Shown here in pieces: positions 54,579-64,000 of a stretch of DNA of 64,000 nucleotides; position 1 is the stretch's first letter; the number at the start of each line of letters is the position of its first letter. The notes under the pieces are model-generated. The model was not told the DNA's origin, did not search any database, and saw only the letters and a program-made list of their open reading frames with translations. The DNA lies in contig NZ_FPEJ01000013.1 in NCBI RefSeq assembly GCF_900117445.1, positions 434,001-498,000 of the forward strand, in the 5' to 3' direction. This DNA comes from Hyphomicrobium sp. NDB2Meth4 (GTDB taxonomy: Bacteria; Pseudomonadota; Alphaproteobacteria; Rhizobiales; Hyphomicrobiaceae). Position numbers and translations under genes: made by a program.

Positions 54579-54663
54579 GGAGGGGTGCCCGAGTGGCTAA
54601 AGGGGACGGACTGTAAATCCGTTGGCTTCGCCTACGCTGGTTCGAATCCAGCCCCCTCCACCA
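54579..54663 (+). tRNA. tRNA-Tyr (GUA), integration site
   Basis: An 85-base class II tRNA including encoded CCA. The acceptor is GGAGGGG/CCCCTCC, the anticodon stem ACGGA/TCCGT holds CTGTAAA (anticodon GUA), a long variable arm follows, and the T arm is CTGGTTCGAATCCAG. The recombinase gene on the opposite strand overlaps its last 32 bases, which marks the 3' end of this tRNA as an attachment site. Confidence 0.95.
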
Positions 54664-56197
54664 ATCCATACTTCCCTGTTCTAATCGCCTGCAAAGCCTT
54701 GAAGGGGTAGGCGATTTCACCGGTTCGATAACCCTCTTTTCGGTTGTAGTGCAGACCACGGCCAAACAGGAGTTTGGGCACCAATCTGCGCGAGGGCAGG
54801 TGGTCGGAAGCCCACATTTTCCGGGGGTTTGCGATGAAGGACAGGGCGGTTCGATAACCCAGATTGAAGTCGATTACTTCCTCGCCGCGTGAGGCGAGTC
54901 TTTCCTGCAGAACGATCCTGCGCTCCTGCAGCTTGCGCACCTCCGCTTCATAGGCCGCGATCAGCACGCCGTTGTCGGCGGCGATGAGACGTTCCATGAG
55001 CTGACTGCTCTTGCGCTCGATCTCCGTGAGTTCGGCCTTCAGCGTCTGGTGCTGTTCGGCTTGGCCCTTGCGTCCTGCCGCCCAGACTTCCGAGACCAGC
55101 TCATGAAAGGCGTCGATGAGAGGCGCATCGGGCCGGATGGCATCCAGCAACGTTTCGAAGTCACCCTCGATTCGCTCCTTGCGGATCGATTTGCGGCTCT
55201 CTTCGCAGCCCTTGGCCTGACAGAAGTAATAGGGATACTGGCCGTTGCGACCCTTCGACCAGCCAGCGGACATTGTGTGCCCGCAGCAGGCGCAGGCGAC
55301 GATGCCGCGCAAGGGAAAGTCTTCTCGCGTGTCCTTGCGTAGCGCGCCTACCGGGCGGCCCTTCAGACGTTCCAATACGCGCAGGTGCGTTTCGTAAGTG
55401 ATGAGGGGCTCGTGCTTTCCAAGCAAAGGCGCGATGCCCCACTGAGGGGCGTCGATATATCCGGCATAGGTGGGCCGCTCCAGCATCTCCCGGATTTTCT
55501 GCAGATGAACGGTCTTGCCGTGCCGGCTCGTGAAGCCCGGCTTGCCTTCCAAAAACCGCTTGATCTCCATCTGGCTCGCAAAGCGGCCGGTCGCAAACCC
55601 TTCCAGAACTTCGCGGACGATTGATGCCGTGGGTTCATCCGGCACAAGGATCTTCCCGTGACCGGGCTTTCGCTCGTAGCGGTAGCCGACGGGGTTGGCG
55701 AAAACCCAGTACCCGCTCATGACGCGGGCGCGCATGCGGTTGACAACCTGCTCGGCGTTCTTCTGGCGCTGATGCTGGGAAACGGAGGCCAGAAGGTTCT
55801 CGACAAGAATGCTGTCGGAATCCTCACCGAACTCGATGGAGGGGCTTTCCAGCTTGCCGCCTGCGTCGTCTATCGAATCCCTGAGCTGTCTGTGTGCCAC
55901 CACGTCGCGTGCAAGGCGGCTGATATCGTCGATGATGACGATGTGGCGCGCATGGGTGCGATGCTTGCGCAGGAAGCCCAGAAGCAGCTGCACGGCGGGC
56001 CGGTCGATCATGCCGCCTGAGACGCCTTCATCACGGAAGACCTGCACCACCTCATAGCCCCTGTGCCGCGCATATTCGCGGCAGCGCGTTTCCTGCGAGG
56101 CAAGGCCATCGCCCTCCTTCATCTGCCGCTGGCTGGAGACGCGGCAATAGATAACGGCTTGGGCAGGCGAGGCATTGAGTGCAGTGGTCTTGGTCAT
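54632..56197 (-). CDS. Large serine site-specific recombinase
   Basis: Integrase/excisionase of 521 residues. The resolvase domain begins VIYCRVSSQRQ with nucleophilic serine near residue 21; RDEGVSGGMIDRP and IDDISRLARD follow. A recombinase domain spans about 180-300, and a zinc ribbon has CACCGHTM and CQAKGCEE cysteine pairs at about 315-350. A coiled-coil region lies near 390-450. The final residues LVEGAGFEPA come from the complementary strand of tRNA-Tyr, so integration regenerates the tRNA and sets the recombinase C-terminus. It overlaps the small upstream gene by four bases. Confidence 0.93.
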   Translation of the reverse strand: MTKTTALNASPAQAVIYCRVSSQRQMKEGDGLASQETRCREYARHRGYEVVQVFRDEGVSGGMIDRPAVQLLLGFLRKHRTHARHIVIIDDISRLARDVVAHRQLRDSIDDAGGKLESPSIEFGEDSDSILVENLLASVSQHQRQKNAEQVVNRMRARVMSGYWVFANPVGYRYERKPGHGKILVPDEPTASIVREVLEGFATGRFASQMEIKRFLEGKPGFTSRHGKTVHLQKIREMLERPTYAGYIDAPQWGIAPLLGKHEPLITYETHLRVLERLKGRPVGALRKDTREDFPLRGIVACACCGHTMSAGWSKGRNGQYPYYFCQAKGCEESRKSIRKERIEGDFETLLDAIRPDAPLIDAFHELVSEVWAAGRKGQAEQHQTLKAELTEIERKSSQLMERLIAADNGVLIAAYEAEVRKLQERRIVLQERLASRGEEVIDFNLGYRTALSFIANPRKMWASDHLPSRRLVPKLLFGRGLHYNRKEGYRTGEIAYPFKALQAIRTGKYGLVEGAGFEPA

Positions 56198-57137: not shown

Positions 57138-57743
57138 CTATTGGAAGGGCGCGGTTGAGAGCCAGCGGATGACGGAATCGCCCTCGTGCGCGTGATCCCA
57201 GATCAGCCACGCATAGCGGTGCTTCAATGTGTGGGCGGTGGCGCGGGCCGGATCGCCCAAGGGGAAACACACGCATTCATCCAGCGCATAAATCACGCTC
57301 GGCGGGCGGCGCACGAAATCATCATGCCGCTTGGGATGGCAGAGCGAGGCGATGTTTAAGAGCATGGCCACGCGCCCGCCTTTGTCAGCGGTGAAGGCTA
57401 ACGCCTTCTCTACAAACCTGTCGGCCATGCCCCAGCCGTAAGGCGGGTTCGTCACGATGTTGCGGGCAAAGGGCTTTTCTAGTTTGAGGAAGTCATAGCC
57501 GGGATGGCCGTAGCCCCAATCGGTAATGTCGGTGGCGATGACATCATAACCGGCCCGCACCAATTCCTTGCTGATAGCGCCGTCACCGCAAGCGGGTTCC
57601 CAGATGTCGCCCTCAAAACGCTCCGCCGAAAGCAGGGCGCGGATGGCGCTTGGCGGTGTCGGGTAAAACTCAAAGGCCGCGCGGCGCTCCGGCACGCGCG
57701 GCTTAAAGTAAGTTGGGTAATCAAAATCAGCAGTGACGCGCAT
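57138..57743 (-). CDS. DNA N6-adenine-methylase-like protein
   Basis: SAM-dependent methyltransferase of 201 residues. EFYPTPPSAIRALLSAE and WEPACGDGAISKELVRAGY form the SAM site, and NIVTNPPYGWGMAD (99-104 the NPPY catalytic motif) is the N6-adenine class signature. There is no target-recognition domain, so it is a minimal phage-type methylase. ATG 57743 follows AAGGAGCCGCCCC. It could protect the element DNA or regulate it; alternatively it may be RNA- or protein-directed. Confidence 0.85.
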   Translation of the reverse strand: MRVTADFDYPTYFKPRVPERRAAFEFYPTPPSAIRALLSAERFEGDIWEPACGDGAISKELVRAGYDVIATDITDWGYGHPGYDFLKLEKPFARNIVTNPPYGWGMADRFVEKALAFTADKGGRVAMLLNIASLCHPKRHDDFVRRPPSVIYALDECVCFPLGDPARATAHTLKHRYAWLIWDHAHEGDSVIRWLSTAPFQ

Positions 57744-57770
57744 GGGGCGGCTCCTTGGTCGGTTCTTCAA

Positions 57771-58055: not shown

Positions 58056-59627
58056 TTAAGTGACTTTTTGAAGGATGCGGTCGATCAACGATTTAGCAGC
58101 GATCCTATTGGTGGAGCACTCGTAGATCAGAGCGAACATTTGCTCGTACATTCTTCGCTTTGCCGTCGGAAGATCTGCCAGAGGTGATTCTTCCAATTTG
58201 GCCCTAAGAACTTTGTCGAGTTTTTTTTGTGTCGCCCGAACCCGCGCCGCTAGGGCGTCTTCTGGGCCTAAGTCGAGGCCATCCATTTTCGCAATCTTTT
58301 CCATTGCGCCTATTGCTCGCTCAGCGCCGCGCGCAAATTCCGTTCGCTTCGCGGCTGCCAGCGTTCCTTGAGCGATGATAGCAATCTTTTCTTCGGCAAC
58401 CGCGGACTGCATGTCAAAGTCGCGCAGCCACTTCCGTTTGATTGAACTCGTGCGGCAGCGTCGCGACAAGTCCCGCGCAATGGGAGCAATTTGATTGAGG
58501 AGATTATTGAAGTGAGTGTTCTGCTCAAAATGATCGCGCCGTCCGTTTGGGACGATCCGCTCATCGAGGATGTGCACTTCGCCTACTACCCAGCCGCTGA
58601 AGCGACTTTCGGTAAACAGCTCTTCCAGGAGCAAATGGTCGCCGACCTGGATGTTTCCGACACGAAGTCTTAGTCCCTTGACGAGGCTACCCTGGGGAAT
58701 CGCTCCCGCATAGCTGTGGTGGAGCAGCCAACAGATGGCTGAGGGCTGACCATCCATTCCTGTCAAGTGAACGAACTCGACGTCGGTGTAGGAGTCGGCA
58801 CTCTCGCTGCCAACATCAAGCTCATTTCGGAATGGTCGGAACACTGGTTCTTCAAGGCCACTGATGACGACCCGCAGATCGCCAAGCGGGACGTTGGCCT
58901 TCAACGCAGAAGCAATCTCTGCTCCGAACTTGAAGGTCGGCGCGAAGGGGACCGGCGCGACCTGGCTAATGTAGTCAGCTACCGCTTCAGGACTGAGGAG
59001 ACGGTCGTTCTTGTGTCGAATGATCCCCTTTAATTCCACCTCGAAGAAATGTGGTGGCCAATCGTCGCCGTTGGTCTTGTGGTGGGTTACCACATCGACG
59101 ATCACGTCGCGCAAGTCAGCTTCACTCTCCGTGGATCGGAGAGCCGACTTCAAGCGACGGCAATCCCACCGCAGCTCTGAGATGTTGGATTCTCCACGCG
59201 CGCGTGATCGAAAAATGAGTTCCTGACAATATCCAAGTCCCGCCAGCCTGCCGACACCACGAAAGCCCCGCGCGGCTGCTCCGCGCTTCGAGCTTGCGCC
59301 AAGCGCAGTCATTTTCCGCGTAAACTGGCGACTGGGAATGCCAATACCATTGTCGCGAATACGCACGGTGCGGTTGGCCCCGTCGATAGATAGTTCGACG
59401 GCACCTTCATCGCTCTCACTGAGAACGCCCTTTTGTTTGGCTTCATCGATGGCGTCGGCCGCATTCTGAAGATATTCGCGATAGATCGTCATAGGATCGA
59501 CGTACATCGCGCTGCTCAGCAGCTCGAGAATATCTCGACCTATTGTAATATCGTTTGCTTGTACGGCCGAGATGGACTTGTCAGAACGATCAAGACTGCT
59601 GGCAGAGATCGAGTGGGTCCGTGTCAT
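58056..59627 (-). CDS. GHKL (Hsp90/MORC-like) ATPase
   Basis: ATPase of 523 residues. The Bergerat fold is clear: N-box YREYLQNAADAIDEA (Glu51, Asn55), VRIRDNGIGIPS (Asp92), and ARGFRGVGRLAGLG (120-132). A second domain with similarity in layout to HtpG or MutL/MORC middle domains spans about 200-400, and a long helical, charged tail ends the protein. It has no kinase H-box, so it is not a sensor kinase. It overlaps the radical SAM gene by four bases. Such GHKL ATPases occur in restriction-modification-like operons beside SNF2 ATPases, and a nucleic-acid clamp role is plausible. Confidence 0.85.
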   Translation of the reverse strand: MTRTHSISASSLDRSDKSISAVQANDITIGRDILELLSSAMYVDPMTIYREYLQNAADAIDEAKQKGVLSESDEGAVELSIDGANRTVRIRDNGIGIPSRQFTRKMTALGASSKRGAAARGFRGVGRLAGLGYCQELIFRSRARGESNISELRWDCRRLKSALRSTESEADLRDVIVDVVTHHKTNGDDWPPHFFEVELKGIIRHKNDRLLSPEAVADYISQVAPVPFAPTFKFGAEIASALKANVPLGDLRVVISGLEEPVFRPFRNELDVGSESADSYTDVEFVHLTGMDGQPSAICWLLHHSYAGAIPQGSLVKGLRLRVGNIQVGDHLLLEELFTESRFSGWVVGEVHILDERIVPNGRRDHFEQNTHFNNLLNQIAPIARDLSRRCRTSSIKRKWLRDFDMQSAVAEEKIAIIAQGTLAAAKRTEFARGAERAIGAMEKIAKMDGLDLGPEDALAARVRATQKKLDKVLRAKLEESPLADLPTAKRRMYEQMFALIYECSTNRIAAKSLIDRILQKVT

Positions 59628-61261
59628 GCAATCACTCGCTGCTTCTTGGTGCCCCGCACCTTGGCGGTTTCGGATCTGGAAGGAATTGGGACCTCGTCGG
59701 CTTCCAGCCCGGCATCCTCGACGCGTTCTTCTTCAGAAAGACCGTCATCGACGTTCATTTCACCCTGCTTGTCGCGAGCCCAGATTTTGAACAGCTCCGG
59801 CTTCGGTTTGGGCGTGTAAAACGGTAATAGCTCAAGAATGGCGCGGTTCTTGGTTGCTTTTGGAAGACTGCCAAAGTCCCTTGGATCGCATGATGAAAGC
59901 AGCCTCAAGAGCTCGTTCTCATCGTCGGGCGTTAGCGTCGAGGCCTTGATCGTGTACTCCTCGAATTCGGCCTTTCCGCCGTCCCGTTCATACCAATCTC
60001 TATTGAAAATAAAGTCATGCGGTAGAAGCAGCAGTTTCTGGAACTGCTCGAACGTATCGCCAAAAGCTCGCTTGAAGAAATCAGGCTCGCCGCTGACCAC
60101 TCCATGTGTGGCCTGCAGGATGATTTGGAGCGAGCGCAGCTGATAGCGGGTCCAACGCTCGCCAACGTGTCCACGATCCGGCCGGTTCGTTGGTTGGTAT
60201 CGCATCGGAAAGGACCAGATGCGTATGCCCAGCTCTTCGTTCAGCGTCACGTTCAACCGCATGCGCTCGAAGAGGTCCGCTGGATTATCATGAAAATTAT
60301 ACAGCATGTAGTTGGACAGCTCGGTGAGGCCGAACTCGTGCGCATATCTCACGGCTTGCTCATAGGGCTTGCGAAGGCCGAGGTGGTCAAAAGCGATGCG
60401 TAACGGCCTTAGACAGATGCTGGACAATTCCCGAAGGTACATCTTGTCCTTACACAAGATGCGCGCGTCGACGCCTTGATTGAAATCCACGCGTCTCTGG
60501 CTGGCGACTCGTTCGCCCGAGCGGCGAAGCTTCGCGCCGGGTGTAAAGCCTAGAGCTCTGATCTCCGCGATAATTTCCTTAAAGCGCGGGGACGCGACTA
60601 CGTTGTTGTCCATCAACACGAGGTCTTTTTTCGGCCCGTAGAGTGCGTCGATGCCGCGGACAACATCCGTCAATGATTCCGTGTCCCGCTGTGTGCCTTC
60701 AAGCTTGGGCACACCGCAGAAAGAGCATTTTCTAATGCAGCCCCGAGACGTGTAAGCGAAATAGGCATCGCTTACGGGGTAGTGGTATCCGATCTGCCCA
60801 AGAATCCCGTAGTCCGGGATGAGATCTTCGATCGGCTTGCCGTACTGATCGTCAGCATATAGCTCATCGGAGAAATCATCCAACTGCAGGGAGACGGCAG
60901 GCGCCTGGTTCAGGAGCCCCTTAATAAACCTGATGCCGTGCCATCTTCGTTCAGCCGCAAAGCGCTCAGGCATTAGAGAAGCTGCAATGCCGCCAACAAA
61001 TACCTTGTCGGCCTGACCGTTCGCCACCTTAAGGGCGAAGTCGATAGACTGAGCAATGCGGGGATACTCGAACGAGAAGAGCGTGGTGACATAAATTCGA
61101 TCCCACGCCTCGCCGAGAACGGACTTGTCCTCGCCCTTGATAAACTTGACGCGGTCCTTTTTTCCGTTTGGCCCGTGGTATTGAGCAATTTTCATAAGAC
61201 CAAGCGGCGGATACTTGTTCTTGTAGCCAGGCTCTATGAGTAGAATGTTCCGGTTAGCCAT
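59624..61261 (-). CDS. Radical SAM protein with degenerate B12-like N-terminal domain
   Basis: Radical SAM enzyme of 545 residues. The iron-sulfur cluster cysteines are Cys175, Cys179 and Cys182 in TSRGCIRKCSFCGVPKLEG. The N-terminal 160 residues (NILLIEPGYKNKYPPLGLMKIAQYHG) resemble a cobalamin-binding domain without the DxHxxG cobalamin motif. The TIM barrel continues to about 400, followed by a long extension ending in a charged tail (SEEERVEDAGLEADE...KKQRVIA). It overlaps both neighbours by eight and four bases. A radical enzyme inside this kind of operon suggests a base or nucleotide modification, which is inference. Confidence 0.87.
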   Translation of the reverse strand: MANRNILLIEPGYKNKYPPLGLMKIAQYHGPNGKKDRVKFIKGEDKSVLGEAWDRIYVTTLFSFEYPRIAQSIDFALKVANGQADKVFVGGIAASLMPERFAAERRWHGIRFIKGLLNQAPAVSLQLDDFSDELYADDQYGKPIEDLIPDYGILGQIGYHYPVSDAYFAYTSRGCIRKCSFCGVPKLEGTQRDTESLTDVVRGIDALYGPKKDLVLMDNNVVASPRFKEIIAEIRALGFTPGAKLRRSGERVASQRRVDFNQGVDARILCKDKMYLRELSSICLRPLRIAFDHLGLRKPYEQAVRYAHEFGLTELSNYMLYNFHDNPADLFERMRLNVTLNEELGIRIWSFPMRYQPTNRPDRGHVGERWTRYQLRSLQIILQATHGVVSGEPDFFKRAFGDTFEQFQKLLLLPHDFIFNRDWYERDGGKAEFEEYTIKASTLTPDDENELLRLLSSCDPRDFGSLPKATKNRAILELLPFYTPKPKPELFKIWARDKQGEMNVDDGLSEEERVEDAGLEADEVPIPSRSETAKVRGTKKQRVIA

Positions 61262-62285
61262 TGGCCACCATCCTTAGGTGCGCGCGCGCTCTGCTCTGGC
61301 GGATAAGCGAGACGGCCGTGGTGACACCGCTTTCGCCTCCCAACCCTTTCAATGGGCCGCTACTCGACCAATCGAACTGTGTCATGAAATCGCCGAGGAC
61401 AGCGCAGAAGTGCCGAGCCGTTGGCAGCATTTTGCGGTCAGCCTCGTTGCAGAGATCTGCTGCCAGTTCCATCAGCGCGTAGACGCCAATGCCCTTGGTA
61501 AGAAAATGTTTGCGTGGCTGAGCCCACTCGCGGGGCAGTGTCGCTGCGACGGCTTGCCAATAAGCGAGTGTCACTTGGCAGAGTTCTTCAGCCGTATGGT
61601 CCTTCGCAAGATTGGCGCGACACAGGAACAGCTTGATAGCCTTTTGGAGGGTCCGCAGCGAGGCCCGCCGCATCAACCCCGAGGTGCGTTCGCCGCCAAT
61701 ATCTAACTGCTGATGCCAGGGTGAAGAGGGTTCGTTGCGAAGGAATAATGCGATGAGAAGCTCAGGCCTGTCGCCCGCAAGATCCGTCGCAAGCTGCGCG
61801 TCGTGAAAATCAAGCAAGCTGGAACTTAGCCCCTTTGCCTTGCTGTTGATTGTATTGAAAACCTCCATCTCTTCGCGGTCGGATAGCCCGACAAAGCACA
61901 TAAAAGGAAGTTCTAGCGCGAGGTCAGCGAGGTGCCCCAATCGATGTTGGCAATCAACCTGTGTGAGCAGCGGACCTGCCGTGGTCGCTAAATTAAGACG
62001 CCGGTTGCGACCGGACTTCGAGACCAGCGTCCACGCTTGATCCTCACGGGGGCGCAGATTGAAGGTGAGCGGGATGGTGGTGCTGGTCGGCCGTTGAATG
62101 TACCTGCGGAAATCCAGACTATGCTGGGAGTTGAATCGGCGCTGGTATCCCCGGCCAGAATCCTCATTGAGCACGTCCGCAAAGCTCAGTGAGCAGAGGA
62201 GGGACGCGGGCGCGTAGCCGAGCAAGACCGGACGGTTGGCCGATTGACCAAGAAAACAATCAAGTGTGACGATTTTGGAGGCCAT
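61254..62285 (-). CDS. DGQHR-domain protein (DndB-like)
   Basis: A 343-residue protein of the DGQHR/DndB superfamily. The signature appears as TQVDCQHRLGHLADL, with the usual Gly changed to Cys, at residues 111-115 from ATG 62285. The second conserved segment FNTINSKAKGLSSSLLDFHD matches the family. DndB is a repressor and DNA-binding protein in phosphorothioate systems. Start ATG 62285 has GGAG five bases upstream; an alternative at 62312 would overlap the palindrome at 62310-62326. It overlaps the radical SAM gene by eight bases. Confidence 0.85.
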   Translation of the reverse strand: MASKIVTLDCFLGQSANRPVLLGYAPASLLCSLSFADVLNEDSGRGYQRRFNSQHSLDFRRYIQRPTSTTIPLTFNLRPREDQAWTLVSKSGRNRRLNLATTAGPLLTQVDCQHRLGHLADLALELPFMCFVGLSDREEMEVFNTINSKAKGLSSSLLDFHDAQLATDLAGDRPELLIALFLRNEPSSPWHQQLDIGGERTSGLMRRASLRTLQKAIKLFLCRANLAKDHTAEELCQVTLAYWQAVAATLPREWAQPRKHFLTKGIGVYALMELAADLCNEADRKMLPTARHFCAVLGDFMTQFDWSSSGPLKGLGGESGVTTAVSLIRQSRARAHLRMVANG

Positions 62286-62309
62286 TAGAGCTCCGAATCT
62301 GCAGCTGCC

Positions 62310-62326
62310 CACTGCATATTGCAGTG
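62310..62326. promoter_or_regulatory. Palindrome upstream of the DGQHR-domain gene
   Basis: CACTGCATATTGCAGTG has perfect seven-base arms around TAT and lies 25-41 bases before the DGQHR start. The gap between this gene and the ParB-domain gene is the only sizeable spacer in the operon, so an internal operator or promoter is plausible. The DGQHR protein might autoregulate here, as DndB does. Confidence 0.6.
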
Positions 62327-62410
62327 AAGGCTGGCTGCAGATTAGGCAAGCTCAAGCACGATGTCGATCGATTTTTTGGAGAGGAGAGGAACTGGGGACA
62401 CAGGGGGTGG

Positions 62411-63436
62411 TCAGTCGAGCTTGGCCTTTATTTTCTCAAGCTGTTCCCGGAACTTGCCTGCCCGTCGCTCGATATCCTTCAGCTCGTAGAGCATACGGTC
62501 TCGGATCGGCTTTTCCGCATCCTGGATGTCGTCCTTGGTATCGGCGCGTGCAAGCCACTCCCGAAATCGCTTCAGTTTGTTGAGAGCGTCGTTCTCGGCA
62601 CCGGCGTTCTTGGCGCTCTCGTACGCTTCCTCAAGGGAGTACCGGCCGTCGATGAAGCGGGTCAGAACCTTTTTGGGCGCGGTACAGATTGCAGGGAGCT
62701 TATCGCGAAGGTCCATCGCTGTCGGGATGGCCTTCGATTGTACCTGTTGAACGATAAGAGCGTCGAAGCCTGAGTGTTCTTCTCGCGCCTTTCTGATTTT
62801 TTGCGATTTTAGATACTCATCGTAGTAGCTCCAACGGTCGCGGTCAGTCTCGCCGTGAAGGATCATAAACTCAAAGACATTGACGATGTGCCGTGCTTCT
62901 TTGTCACTGATCCCGATCTCCTGAGCAACGGTTGAGAGCGGAATGGAATGTTGCTTGTGTCGGCGGAACAGAAAACCGGCCCGTTCATAGGGCAACCAGT
63001 CCTTCTTCCCCTTGATGTGGTACTCGCCAAGCAACGCGAAGACGAGTTTCTCATCGATGGTATCAGGGAGAACCGTGCAACGGATCTGCGCCCATTTAAC
63101 GGGATCTTTGGTTGCCAGATGGCGATAGGCTGCTAGCCTGCTGTTCCCTTCCAGGACAACAAAATCACCTGCGCGGACGATGATGGGATCGATGAGACCG
63201 CCATTTTCAGCAATACTGACGATCAGTTCCTTGACATGTTCGTGGTCTAGAAGCTTCTCGCATATTTCGTCTTGATCCGGTGTCCGGTCGTCCGAGCGCA
63301 CAAGTGAATAAATGCGCGGATTGTCAACGTAGAAGCGTAGCTTTTTGTGGTCGAGGTCGAGCGTCTGCGTAGGGAACGTTTGTCCGCGCAACGTAAGCGA
63401 CCCGACGAAAACGTTCGATCCTTGTATGGTCGCCAT
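62411..63436 (-). CDS. ParB N-terminal domain protein
   Basis: A 341-residue protein with a ParB/Srx nuclease-like N-terminal domain: IAENGGLIDPIIVRAGDFVVLEGNSRLAAYRHLA contains the GxxR motif (GNSR). A helix-turn-helix region follows (IPLSTVAQEIGISDKEARHIVNVF). The C-terminus is a long charged helix (IRDRMLYELKDIERRAGKFREQLEKIKAKLD). This domain is an NTPase/nuclease or DNA-binding module in several modification systems. ATG 63436 is five bases past the helicase stop; GTG 63445 would overlap it. Confidence 0.87.
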   Translation of the reverse strand: MATIQGSNVFVGSLTLRGQTFPTQTLDLDHKKLRFYVDNPRIYSLVRSDDRTPDQDEICEKLLDHEHVKELIVSIAENGGLIDPIIVRAGDFVVLEGNSRLAAYRHLATKDPVKWAQIRCTVLPDTIDEKLVFALLGEYHIKGKKDWLPYERAGFLFRRHKQHSIPLSTVAQEIGISDKEARHIVNVFEFMILHGETDRDRWSYYDEYLKSQKIRKAREEHSGFDALIVQQVQSKAIPTAMDLRDKLPAICTAPKKVLTRFIDGRYSLEEAYESAKNAGAENDALNKLKRFREWLARADTKDDIQDAEKPIRDRMLYELKDIERRAGKFREQLEKIKAKLD

Positions 63437-63441
63437 GATGG

Positions 63442-64000
63442 TCACTCTAGTCCTAGAACGTTGCGAACGATGCGGCCAAAGTCGTAGTTGGCAATGGCCT
63501 TATATTCATCCGGCGAGATGTCTGATTGAGCGAGCTGCGCAGCGAGCCGTTTTGCCATAAGGAGGGAGTCTACCCATTCGTCGACCGTGCCCGTCGCGAT
63601 TAGATTCCAAATGTAGCAAGTGCTTTTCTGCGAAATGCGATGGATGCGGTCCTGCGCCTGCAGATAGTCGTCGAGACTGAAGGACCGATCATAAAAGACA
63701 GCATGACTGGCCATCGTAAGAGTCAGCCCCTCCTTCGCGGCACCGGGTGTCGCGACCAATACCCGAACGGAAGGATCGATCTTAAACGCGCGTATGGCAT
63801 CGTTTCTTTCGGCGATGGGACGCGAGCCATGAACGTAGACGCAGCCGAAACTTGAAAGTTGATCGGCTAGCCACTCCGCGTTGTCGATGAAGTTAGTCCA
63901 GACGATTATTTTCGTATTCTCAGCCACGGCTCGCCTTACGAGCTCGACCAAAGTAGGCAATTTACCGGGTGCAGAGCTGTATGAATGGTCAACCAGTCCT
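63442..64000 (-). CDS. SNF2-type helicase, C-terminal part (cut by window edge)
   Basis: The frame is open to the right edge, so only the second RecA-like lobe is seen, about 186 residues. IIVWTNFIDNAEWLADQL is motif IV, VRVLVATPGAAKEGLTLTMASHAVFYD is motif V, and DYLQAQDRIHRISQKSTCYIWNLIATGTVDEW is motif VI with the arginine finger region. The QxQDRIHRISQ pattern is that of SWI2/SNF2 ATPases. It leads the operon seen in this window, with the ParB-domain gene starting six bases after its stop. The nucleic-acid substrate is unknown. Confidence 0.88.
   Translation of the reverse strand, partial: GLVDHSYSSAPGKLPTLVELVRRAVAENTKIIVWTNFIDNAEWLADQLSSFGCVYVHGSRPIAERNDAIRAFKIDPSVRVLVATPGAAKEGLTLTMASHAVFYDRSFSLDDYLQAQDRIHRISQKSTCYIWNLIATGTVDEWVDSLLMAKRLAAQLAQSDISPDEYKAIANYDFGRIVRNVLGLE

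Follow-up and report, generated by a model that had tools for sequence, protein, structure and literature searches.

A mobile gene set that joins a radical SAM enzyme and an Hsp90-like ATPase to exchangeable nuclease-bearing modules

MORC and paraMORC restriction loci, as set out in parts of Iyer et al. (2008; PMC2292703), place a GHKL ATPase beside an SNF2 ATPase and a nuclease. The same neighbourhood is found in a seven-gene operon that lies partly within a 64,000-nucleotide window of Hyphomicrobium sp. NDB2Meth4 DNA (C4:434001–498000, where C4 is our contig label and G000 the window's own genome) and continues past its end. This operon also encodes a radical S-adenosylmethionine (SAM) enzyme, a small DGQHR protein and ParB-like proteins; the terms 'radical', 'ParB', 'DndB' and 'PIN domain' do not occur in the main text of PMC2292703. 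Its GHKL protein differs from those of the MORC and paraMORC loci in being Hsp90-like, a distinction drawn from HtpG/Hsp90 matches and not from a direct comparison with MORC profiles. Gene context gives good support to the view that the gene set is undescribed and defence-like. Across its relatives a two-gene core of radical SAM enzyme and Hsp90-like ATPase is kept, in many cases joined by a DGQHR gene that overlaps it, while nuclease-bearing modules swap around it. The set thus combines mobility, a conserved core and exchangeable nuclease-bearing modules with intact catalytic motifs.

Individual parts of the operon are related to components of the Dnd, Dpd and Zorya systems. The DGQHR protein is related to DndB, and some relatives, such as L056 (2.2e-47), have a DndH-like HerA ATPase alongside the core. 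However, the genome has no DndC match at E 0.001, and DndD, DndE, DndF and DndG are missing from the listed matches of the operon genes, to which the search for DndD–DndE was confined. The DGQHR protein is also related to DpdB (1.7e-11) and the SNF2 ATPase resembles DpdE (1.1e-33 in PADLOC-DB), but both fall far below the NCBIfam cut-offs (43.7 against 300 bits and 42.4 against 500 bits, respectively), and in place of a DpdA-type tRNA-guanine transglycosylase (TGT) the operon has a radical SAM enzyme and an Hsp90-like ATPase. No operon gene matches a TGT, and the single TGT gene of the genome is on contig C15. In PADLOC-DB the SNF2 ATPase matches ZorD best (5.4e-41), but the PADLOC matches listed for the operon genes include neither ZorA nor ZorB, and the nuclease-like part is encoded separately by a small gene. 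With these defining matches absent, we reject assignment to a known Dnd, Dpd or Zorya locus. PADLOC-DB, searched up to E 0.01, contains no match for the radical SAM enzyme, the GHKL ATPase or the nuclease-like protein. This comparison with catalogued systems had been proposed in an initial annotation of the window, and its outcome bears out the suggestion made there of an undescribed, mobile, restriction-like set in which a radical SAM enzyme stands where known systems carry other chemistry. We found no description of a system with radical SAM, DGQHR and Hsp90-like ATPase components in the open-licence PMC literature; the combination is absent from the portions covered of PMC10853773, PMC12839542, PMC2292703, PMC7159879, PMC12458937, PMC3226654 and PMC5512222, and the one paper in whose covered portion 'DGQHR' and 'radical SAM' both occur uses them in separate contexts.

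Five of the seven genes lie in the window at the positions and on the strand annotated initially (Table 1), and extension past 64 kb adds two co-directed genes ahead of SNF2, giving the transcription order ParB1, nuclease-like, SNF2, ParB2, DGQHR, radical SAM, GHKL. The in-window genes overlap by 4, 8 and 4 bp and are separated only between ParB2 and DGQHR, by 98 or 125 bp according to the DGQHR start chosen, in agreement with the 8- and 4-bp spacings and single large gap of about 125 bp described before. For the small DGQHR protein ATG 62285 is the more likely start. SNF2 translation probably begins at the GTG directly past the nuclease-like stop codon, which would give a protein of ~488 amino acids, close to the usual length of the family. 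A promoter and terminator scan returned 2 promoter-like sites against 4.0 expected and 12 terminator-like sites against 10.3 expected. Profile searches of each protein recovered the GHKL, radical SAM, DGQHR, ParB and SNF2 families originally named, with the matches to Radical_SAM and of ParB2 below cut-offs.

Table 1 Genes of the operon and features at the left end of the element that carries it. Positions are those of the window unless marked C4 or L002.
Feature	Position	Strand	Length and evidence
GHKLa, Hsp90-like GHKL ATPase, core gene 2	58056..59627	-	523 amino acids; HATPase_c_3 7.4e-10
Radical SAM enzyme, core gene 1	59624..61261	-	545 amino acids; Rossmann-like N-terminal region, helical C-terminal domain
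Small DGQHR (DndB/DpdB-like) protein	61254..62312	-	TIGR03187 4.5e-33, over cut-off
ParB2, ParB-like, SNF2 module	62411..63445	-	ParB_N 0.0045 and parB_part 2.9e-5, both below cut-offs
SNF2 ATPase, partly in window	63442..64000, on to C4:498908	-	SNF2-rel_dom 4.5e-27
PD-(D/E)XK nuclease-like gene, past window	C4:498914-499324 (L002:12914-13324)	-	136 amino acids
ParB1, ParB-like, past window	C4:499324-500340 (L002:13324-14340)	-	ParB_N 2.5e-6, over cut-off
tRNA-Tyr, insertion site of the element	54579..54663	+	ARAGORN
Large serine recombinase, left end of element	54632..56197	-	Resolvase 6.2e-24, Zn_ribbon_recom 3e-9

Relatives were collected from plasmids and genome contigs. A tblastn search of plasmids returned 17 records, 12 of which cover at least 80% of the query at 72–76% identity; six of these 12 were read. 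Among the plasmids, pNL1 of Novosphingobium aromaticivorans (NC_002033.1) encodes a PIN protein with the second ATPase, a DGQHR protein, the core pair and DGQHR-large, and the record from strain DSM 12444 (NC_009426.1) gives the same match. The scan of genome contigs was run with two conserved peptides, which biases it towards close relatives; the best 80 of 145 were kept. Together with our own locus these make 87 loci with a full-length radical SAM gene, some of them near-identical (L013–L015, L016/L017, L004/L026 and L059/L060/L064). Record titles name Proteobacteria, Acidobacteria, Verrucomicrobia, Chloroflexi/Dehalococcoidia, Nitrospirae, Gemmatimonadetes, Latescibacterota, Acidimicrobiia and Binatia, where single phylum labels may be wrong because many of the relatives are metagenome-assembled genomes. 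Modules were tallied over the 87 loci by a six-frame search with profiles built from the same loci. GHKLa lies directly downstream of the radical SAM gene on the same strand in 86 of the 87, and the exception (L076) runs into a contig edge; we therefore take the unit to be a two-gene core of radical SAM enzyme and Hsp90-like ATPase. The five in-window genes had been proposed as one unit, and the tally rejects this in its fixed form: only the core pair is constant, and the SNF2 module is present in 43 of 87 loci. Co-occurrence elsewhere, put forward as the check on that proposal, is accordingly found for the pair, but the SNF2 module together with a small DGQHR gene occurs at 25 of 87 loci; elsewhere PIN, DGQHR-large or HerA sets substitute for the SNF2 module. 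Clustering of open reading frames (ORFs) of at least 80 amino acids from 90 loci (the 87 plus L010–L012, which have a distant radical SAM gene) yielded radical SAM (90 loci), GHKL (85), DGQHR (51), ParB (45), SNF2 (43), PIN (29) and nuclease-like (27) families, with every other family in at most 9 loci.

The SNF2 module is laid out as ParB1, nuclease-like, SNF2 and ParB2, or in variants with three or more ParB genes. All 43 SNF2 loci have a nuclease-like match, weak in seven of them (below 50 bits), together with two or more ParB-like matches: two in 37 loci, three in five and four in one, with ParB2 in two pieces in one of the three-ParB loci (L071). In L007, L034, L039, L044 and L081 a variant with at least three ParB-like genes lies for the most part on the other strand from the core genes. 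The SNF2 consensus retains Walker A and DE motifs, and the ParB2 family consensus has an EGNSR motif. In the nuclease-like protein P49 D50 ... G64 E65 A66 K67 ... Q80 are invariant in 27 rows, and this PD...GEAK...Q pattern makes it a putative nuclease and hence a candidate for the nuclease component of a restriction-modification-like set. It belongs to no Pfam, NCBIfam, PADLOC or PHROG family, and a PDB profile search gave no relative, with three matches at E 0.5–0.99. The small DGQHR gene precedes the radical SAM gene, with an 8-base overlap in 32 of 43 loci measured, and VDCQHR is present in 7 of 7 aligned small DGQHR proteins; PDB profile searches with this protein and with the DGQHR-large protein described below gave no match.

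Other loci carry different sets. The PIN module (29 of 87 loci, jointly with the SNF2 module in 12) comprises a PIN_8 protein with conserved acidic residues and a second, also Hsp90-like GHKL (GHKLb). Any DGQHR protein is counted in 51 of 87 loci. One form, DGQHR-large, is ~790 amino acids long with an N-terminal stretch RQxD...EC(T); its residues 76–194 faintly match the C-terminal end of the profile of ZorD, a helicase with an Mrr-like nuclease (0.0022), and may possibly be a nuclease domain. DGQHR and PIN matches fall mostly within ~10 kb of the radical SAM gene. In a control set of 96 genomes of the class, DGQHR is over cut-off in 4 (our own included) and PIN_8 in 1, so that with 51 and 29 of 87 loci both are associated with the core above chance. 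A rarer HerA set (L040, L050, L056 and L074) consists of a 457–489-amino-acid protein, a third GHKL and a protein of ~267–280 amino acids; the HerA-like protein of L056 matches DUF87 (5e-10) in addition to DndH. L056 also encodes a second, unrelated radical SAM protein of the 'mobile pair protein A' type (L056:17456–18334; 6.6e-22, below cut-off), and ORFs resembling it start at L040:17516 and L050:8722. In L025, L043, L079 and L091 a further GHKL is paired with an unassigned protein of 316–340 amino acids. At L117:999–11481 a distant radical SAM–GHKL pair (~40% identical) is preceded by a DEAD helicase, an MZB-domain protein and a NERD-helicase, a candidate module, and in L094:218–8078, an unannotated 8.9-kb gut phage-like record, a GHKL gene precedes the radical SAM gene (~38% identical), with two upstream genes that have no Pfam match. 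HerA/NurA genes suspected in L094 and L085 are not claimed, as no Pfam family was found there.

A quick maximum-likelihood tree of the 87 radical SAM proteins, in which 23 of 83 inner branches are poorly supported, was used to count changes of module state among 67 loci (those with 5 kb on either side, plus our own). At least 16 changes are needed for SNF2, 11 for PIN and 11 for DGQHR, and one core therefore goes with different arms. L038 and L051, for example, have closely similar radical SAM proteins, yet the former carries a PIN and the latter an SNF2 module. The core enzyme is also the slowest to change. Over the same locus pairs the radical SAM protein averages ~65% identity against 42% for GHKLa, 49% for SNF2 and 34% for the nuclease-like protein, and 74% against 25% for PIN; it is more conserved than each partner in 98–100% of pairs, a pattern to be expected if the enzyme is tied to a single fixed substrate while its partners evolve in an arms race.

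The radical SAM enzyme is 54–76% identical to the relatives compared. Although its Radical_SAM Pfam match (7.1e-5) is below cut-off, CxxxCxxC is present in 51 of 51 aligned rows and the fold matches the radical SAM barrel, placing it in the superfamily. C175, C179 and C182 are the only cysteines kept in every row, the next-best columns being positions 283 (37 of 51) and 270 (34 of 51). The AlphaFold2 model (pLDDT 85.9) has MiaB as its best Foldseek match (4.6e-11), with AprD4, CysS and RimO among the first 12 (TM 0.38–0.54, with large root-mean-square deviations); the best matches include RNA-bound MiaB, a nucleic-acid modifier. In common with MiaB and RimO, which are top PDB fold matches, the modelled enzyme has a Rossmann-like N-terminal domain followed by the radical SAM barrel, but its C-terminal part is helical where MiaB has a TRAM domain. 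MiaB/RimO methylthiotransferases carry three extra N-terminal cluster cysteines, and an enzyme of that type is ruled out here by the invariance of the three radical SAM cysteines only. DxHxxG, the cobalamin motif of B12-dependent radical SAM methylases, occurs in 0 of 51 rows within the first 170 amino acids, which rules out that class too.

Profile and fold predict GHKLa to be an Hsp90-like GHKL ATPase with a middle domain. The best PDB match of its sequence profile is HtpG (1e-12, over the N domain), and all 60 rows shown are Hsp90-type. With the AlphaFold2 model (pLDDT 89.8), 50 of 50 listed Foldseek matches are Hsp90-type, over at least 450 columns and with TM 0.38–0.44 by query length. 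The ATP-site motifs are conserved. The protein is not an HtpG orthologue by the NCBIfam cut-off (35.7 against 371 bits). On these Hsp90-type matches we reject a MORC-type GHKL, a class mentioned for comparison in the initial annotation.

We tentatively favour, at somewhat short of even odds, a mobile, modular restriction-modification-like defence system in which the radical SAM enzyme would write a constant self mark and the modules would cut nucleic acid that lacks it. On this view the cell's own nucleic acid, most likely its DNA, would carry a single constant chemical mark put there by the enzyme. The DGQHR protein would direct the enzyme and the Hsp90-like ATPase would power or assemble it, perhaps by loading, a conformational switch or a chaperone action. 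The SNF2 translocase, the PD-(D/E)XK-like nuclease and the two ParB-like proteins may then track along DNA and cut it where unmarked, and the PIN nuclease with the second Hsp90-like ATPase, DGQHR-large and the DndH-like HerA set may be alternative arms that read the same mark. Such a system would bring a radical enzyme, together with an Hsp90-like ATPase, into the core of bacterial genome defence, one conserved pair serving several nuclease arms. It would account for the rows 'radical SAM - DGQHR - ATP-binding' among annotated plasmid genes, and if the enzyme does mark DNA, the product is probably an unknown DNA modification that could be detected by mass spectrometry in cultured carriers.

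The core enzyme has relatives in phages. A PHROGs scan matches it to phage family phrog_9298 (2.6e-37), a family assigned in one annotated case among radical SAM proteins of ~300 amino acids (median 308; 23–36% identical to the core enzyme) that account for 69 of 79 retained viral loci. Phage-type loci of this kind are L119–L187 (viral contigs), L093, L095, L096 and L010–L012. They differ from the operon in protein length and in lacking GHKL and nuclease partners: none of the 69 on viral contigs has a DGQHR, PIN, GHKL, ParB or nuclease-like match above thresholds. A partnerless viral enzyme is a pattern possible for a phage-borne protective enzyme. This leads to a bolder form of the self-mark reading, which we consider doubtful, in which the radical SAM enzyme and Hsp90-like ATPase write one universal DNA mark, at least four unrelated nuclease arms are swapped around them and the phage relatives of the writer act in counter-defence. 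If the core enzyme does write a DNA mark, a phage radical SAM family lacking an assigned function would gain a testable role. A viral scan with a Marinitoga phage radical SAM protein gave no confirmed match. Among the genes labelled by depositors near the radical SAM gene are, in L095, a PAPS (3'-phosphoadenosine 5'-phosphosulfate)-reductase-like gene and DNA methyltransferases and, in L010, a thymidylate synthase and a PAPS-type enzyme, all given here without a background rate.

Several observations weigh against the self-mark reading. In its strict writer-plus-cutter form it does not predict the 11 of 87 loci with none of the four counted modules or the 16 with DGQHR only, although some of these contigs are short, and 36 of 87 loci have no counted DGQHR. 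Known PIN domains are for the most part RNases. The fold likeness to MiaB is modest (TM 0.43–0.51, 17% identity), and the enzyme lacks the extra cluster cysteines. The module state-change counts stand without a shuffled-label comparison. Among the viral relatives, 4 of the 69 distant loci have a weak SNF2 match (121–167 bits), 9 of 10 closer viral-contig loci (L109–L118) carry GHKLa beside the radical SAM gene, and at 23–36% identity the distant enzymes may have a different function.

The best-surviving alternative, which we judge unlikely, makes the core pair a sensor of infection or the producer of a signal, with the nuclease modules as effectors that it sets off in the manner of abortive infection and with no self mark. 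CBASS (cyclic-oligonucleotide-based antiphage signalling system) offers an analogue with triggered effectors, and a constant core with exchangeable effectors, the fast divergence of the PIN effector and the recurrence of a GHKL ATPase in two module types would all fit. Pfam scans of representative proteins, which were not a systematic search, showed no shared ligand-binding domain, however; the DGQHR, SNF2 and DndH-like parts occur in modification-linked systems and the radical SAM enzyme resembles nucleic-acid modifiers. We favour the mark over a signal because the radical SAM enzyme evolves slowly and its accessory parts are related to those of Dnd, Dpd and Zorya.

Two further alternatives concern what the enzyme modifies, and we regard both as improbable, to an equal degree. 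It could protect tRNA or another RNA, with PIN-type modules cutting unmarked RNA and the DNA-type modules coupled in some other way; MiaB and RimO among the closest folds and the frequency of the PIN module are in keeping with this, whereas DNA-type parts (SNF2 with the PD-(D/E)XK-like gene) at 43 of 87 loci, the lack of conserved second-cluster cysteines and the helical C-terminal part are not. Alternatively, it could modify a partner (the ATPase, the nuclease or a short peptide), with the Hsp90-like protein handling a client in a regulated nuclease complex. Radical SAM enzymes often modify peptides, GHKLa has an Hsp90-like fold, and 54 of the 80 loci that belong to the eight commonest classes listed have ATGA or GTGA at the end of the radical SAM gene, as would suit translation coupled to that of GHKLa. 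On the other hand, the partners are nearly always less conserved than the enzyme and are swapped. The ORF search covered frames of at least 80 amino acids and so does not bear on the short-peptide variant of this explanation.

The mobility of the set is apparent from its surroundings. A 34.6-kb insertion at tRNA-Tyr (C4:488669–523317) starts at window position 54669 and extends beyond the window end. In a same-genus genome (G006), 182 bases past tRNA-Tyr comes sequence that is found here 34.6 kb further on; of three relatives compared at this tRNA only G006 shows the empty site, the other two having no blastn match past the tRNA. This one genome, together with recombinase, relaxase and type IV secretion system coupling protein genes and a further resolvase gene in the insertion, backs the earlier placement of the operon in an integrative element. 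Searches for the radical SAM gene found it in 1 of 60 genomes in the relatives search (E 1e-50) and 1 of 289 genomes of the class (E 1e-60), in both cases our own. A function in plasmid or element maintenance or transfer, for which the ParB-like proteins, the copies on plasmids (some typed conjugative) and the relaxase and coupling protein of the host element could speak, is nevertheless highly improbable in view of the several exchangeable nuclease modules, the genome-contig copies in several phyla and the presence among flanking ORFs of the known or candidate defence families PD-T7-1, PD-T7-5 and PDC-S68 (for which there is no control rate).

At the left end of the element the gene preceding tRNA-Tyr, which also precedes it in G006, is presumably RlmB-like. 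In the 58 kb searched, the tRNA-Tyr 3' end does not recur within 3 mismatches. GC content is 0.53–0.56 over the operon against 0.60–0.65 in the sequence before it. Still inside the element and close to the downstream end of the operon, window positions 57138–57770 on the minus strand encode a 210-amino-acid protein that resembles phage DNA methyltransferases (phrog_799, 1.3e-48).

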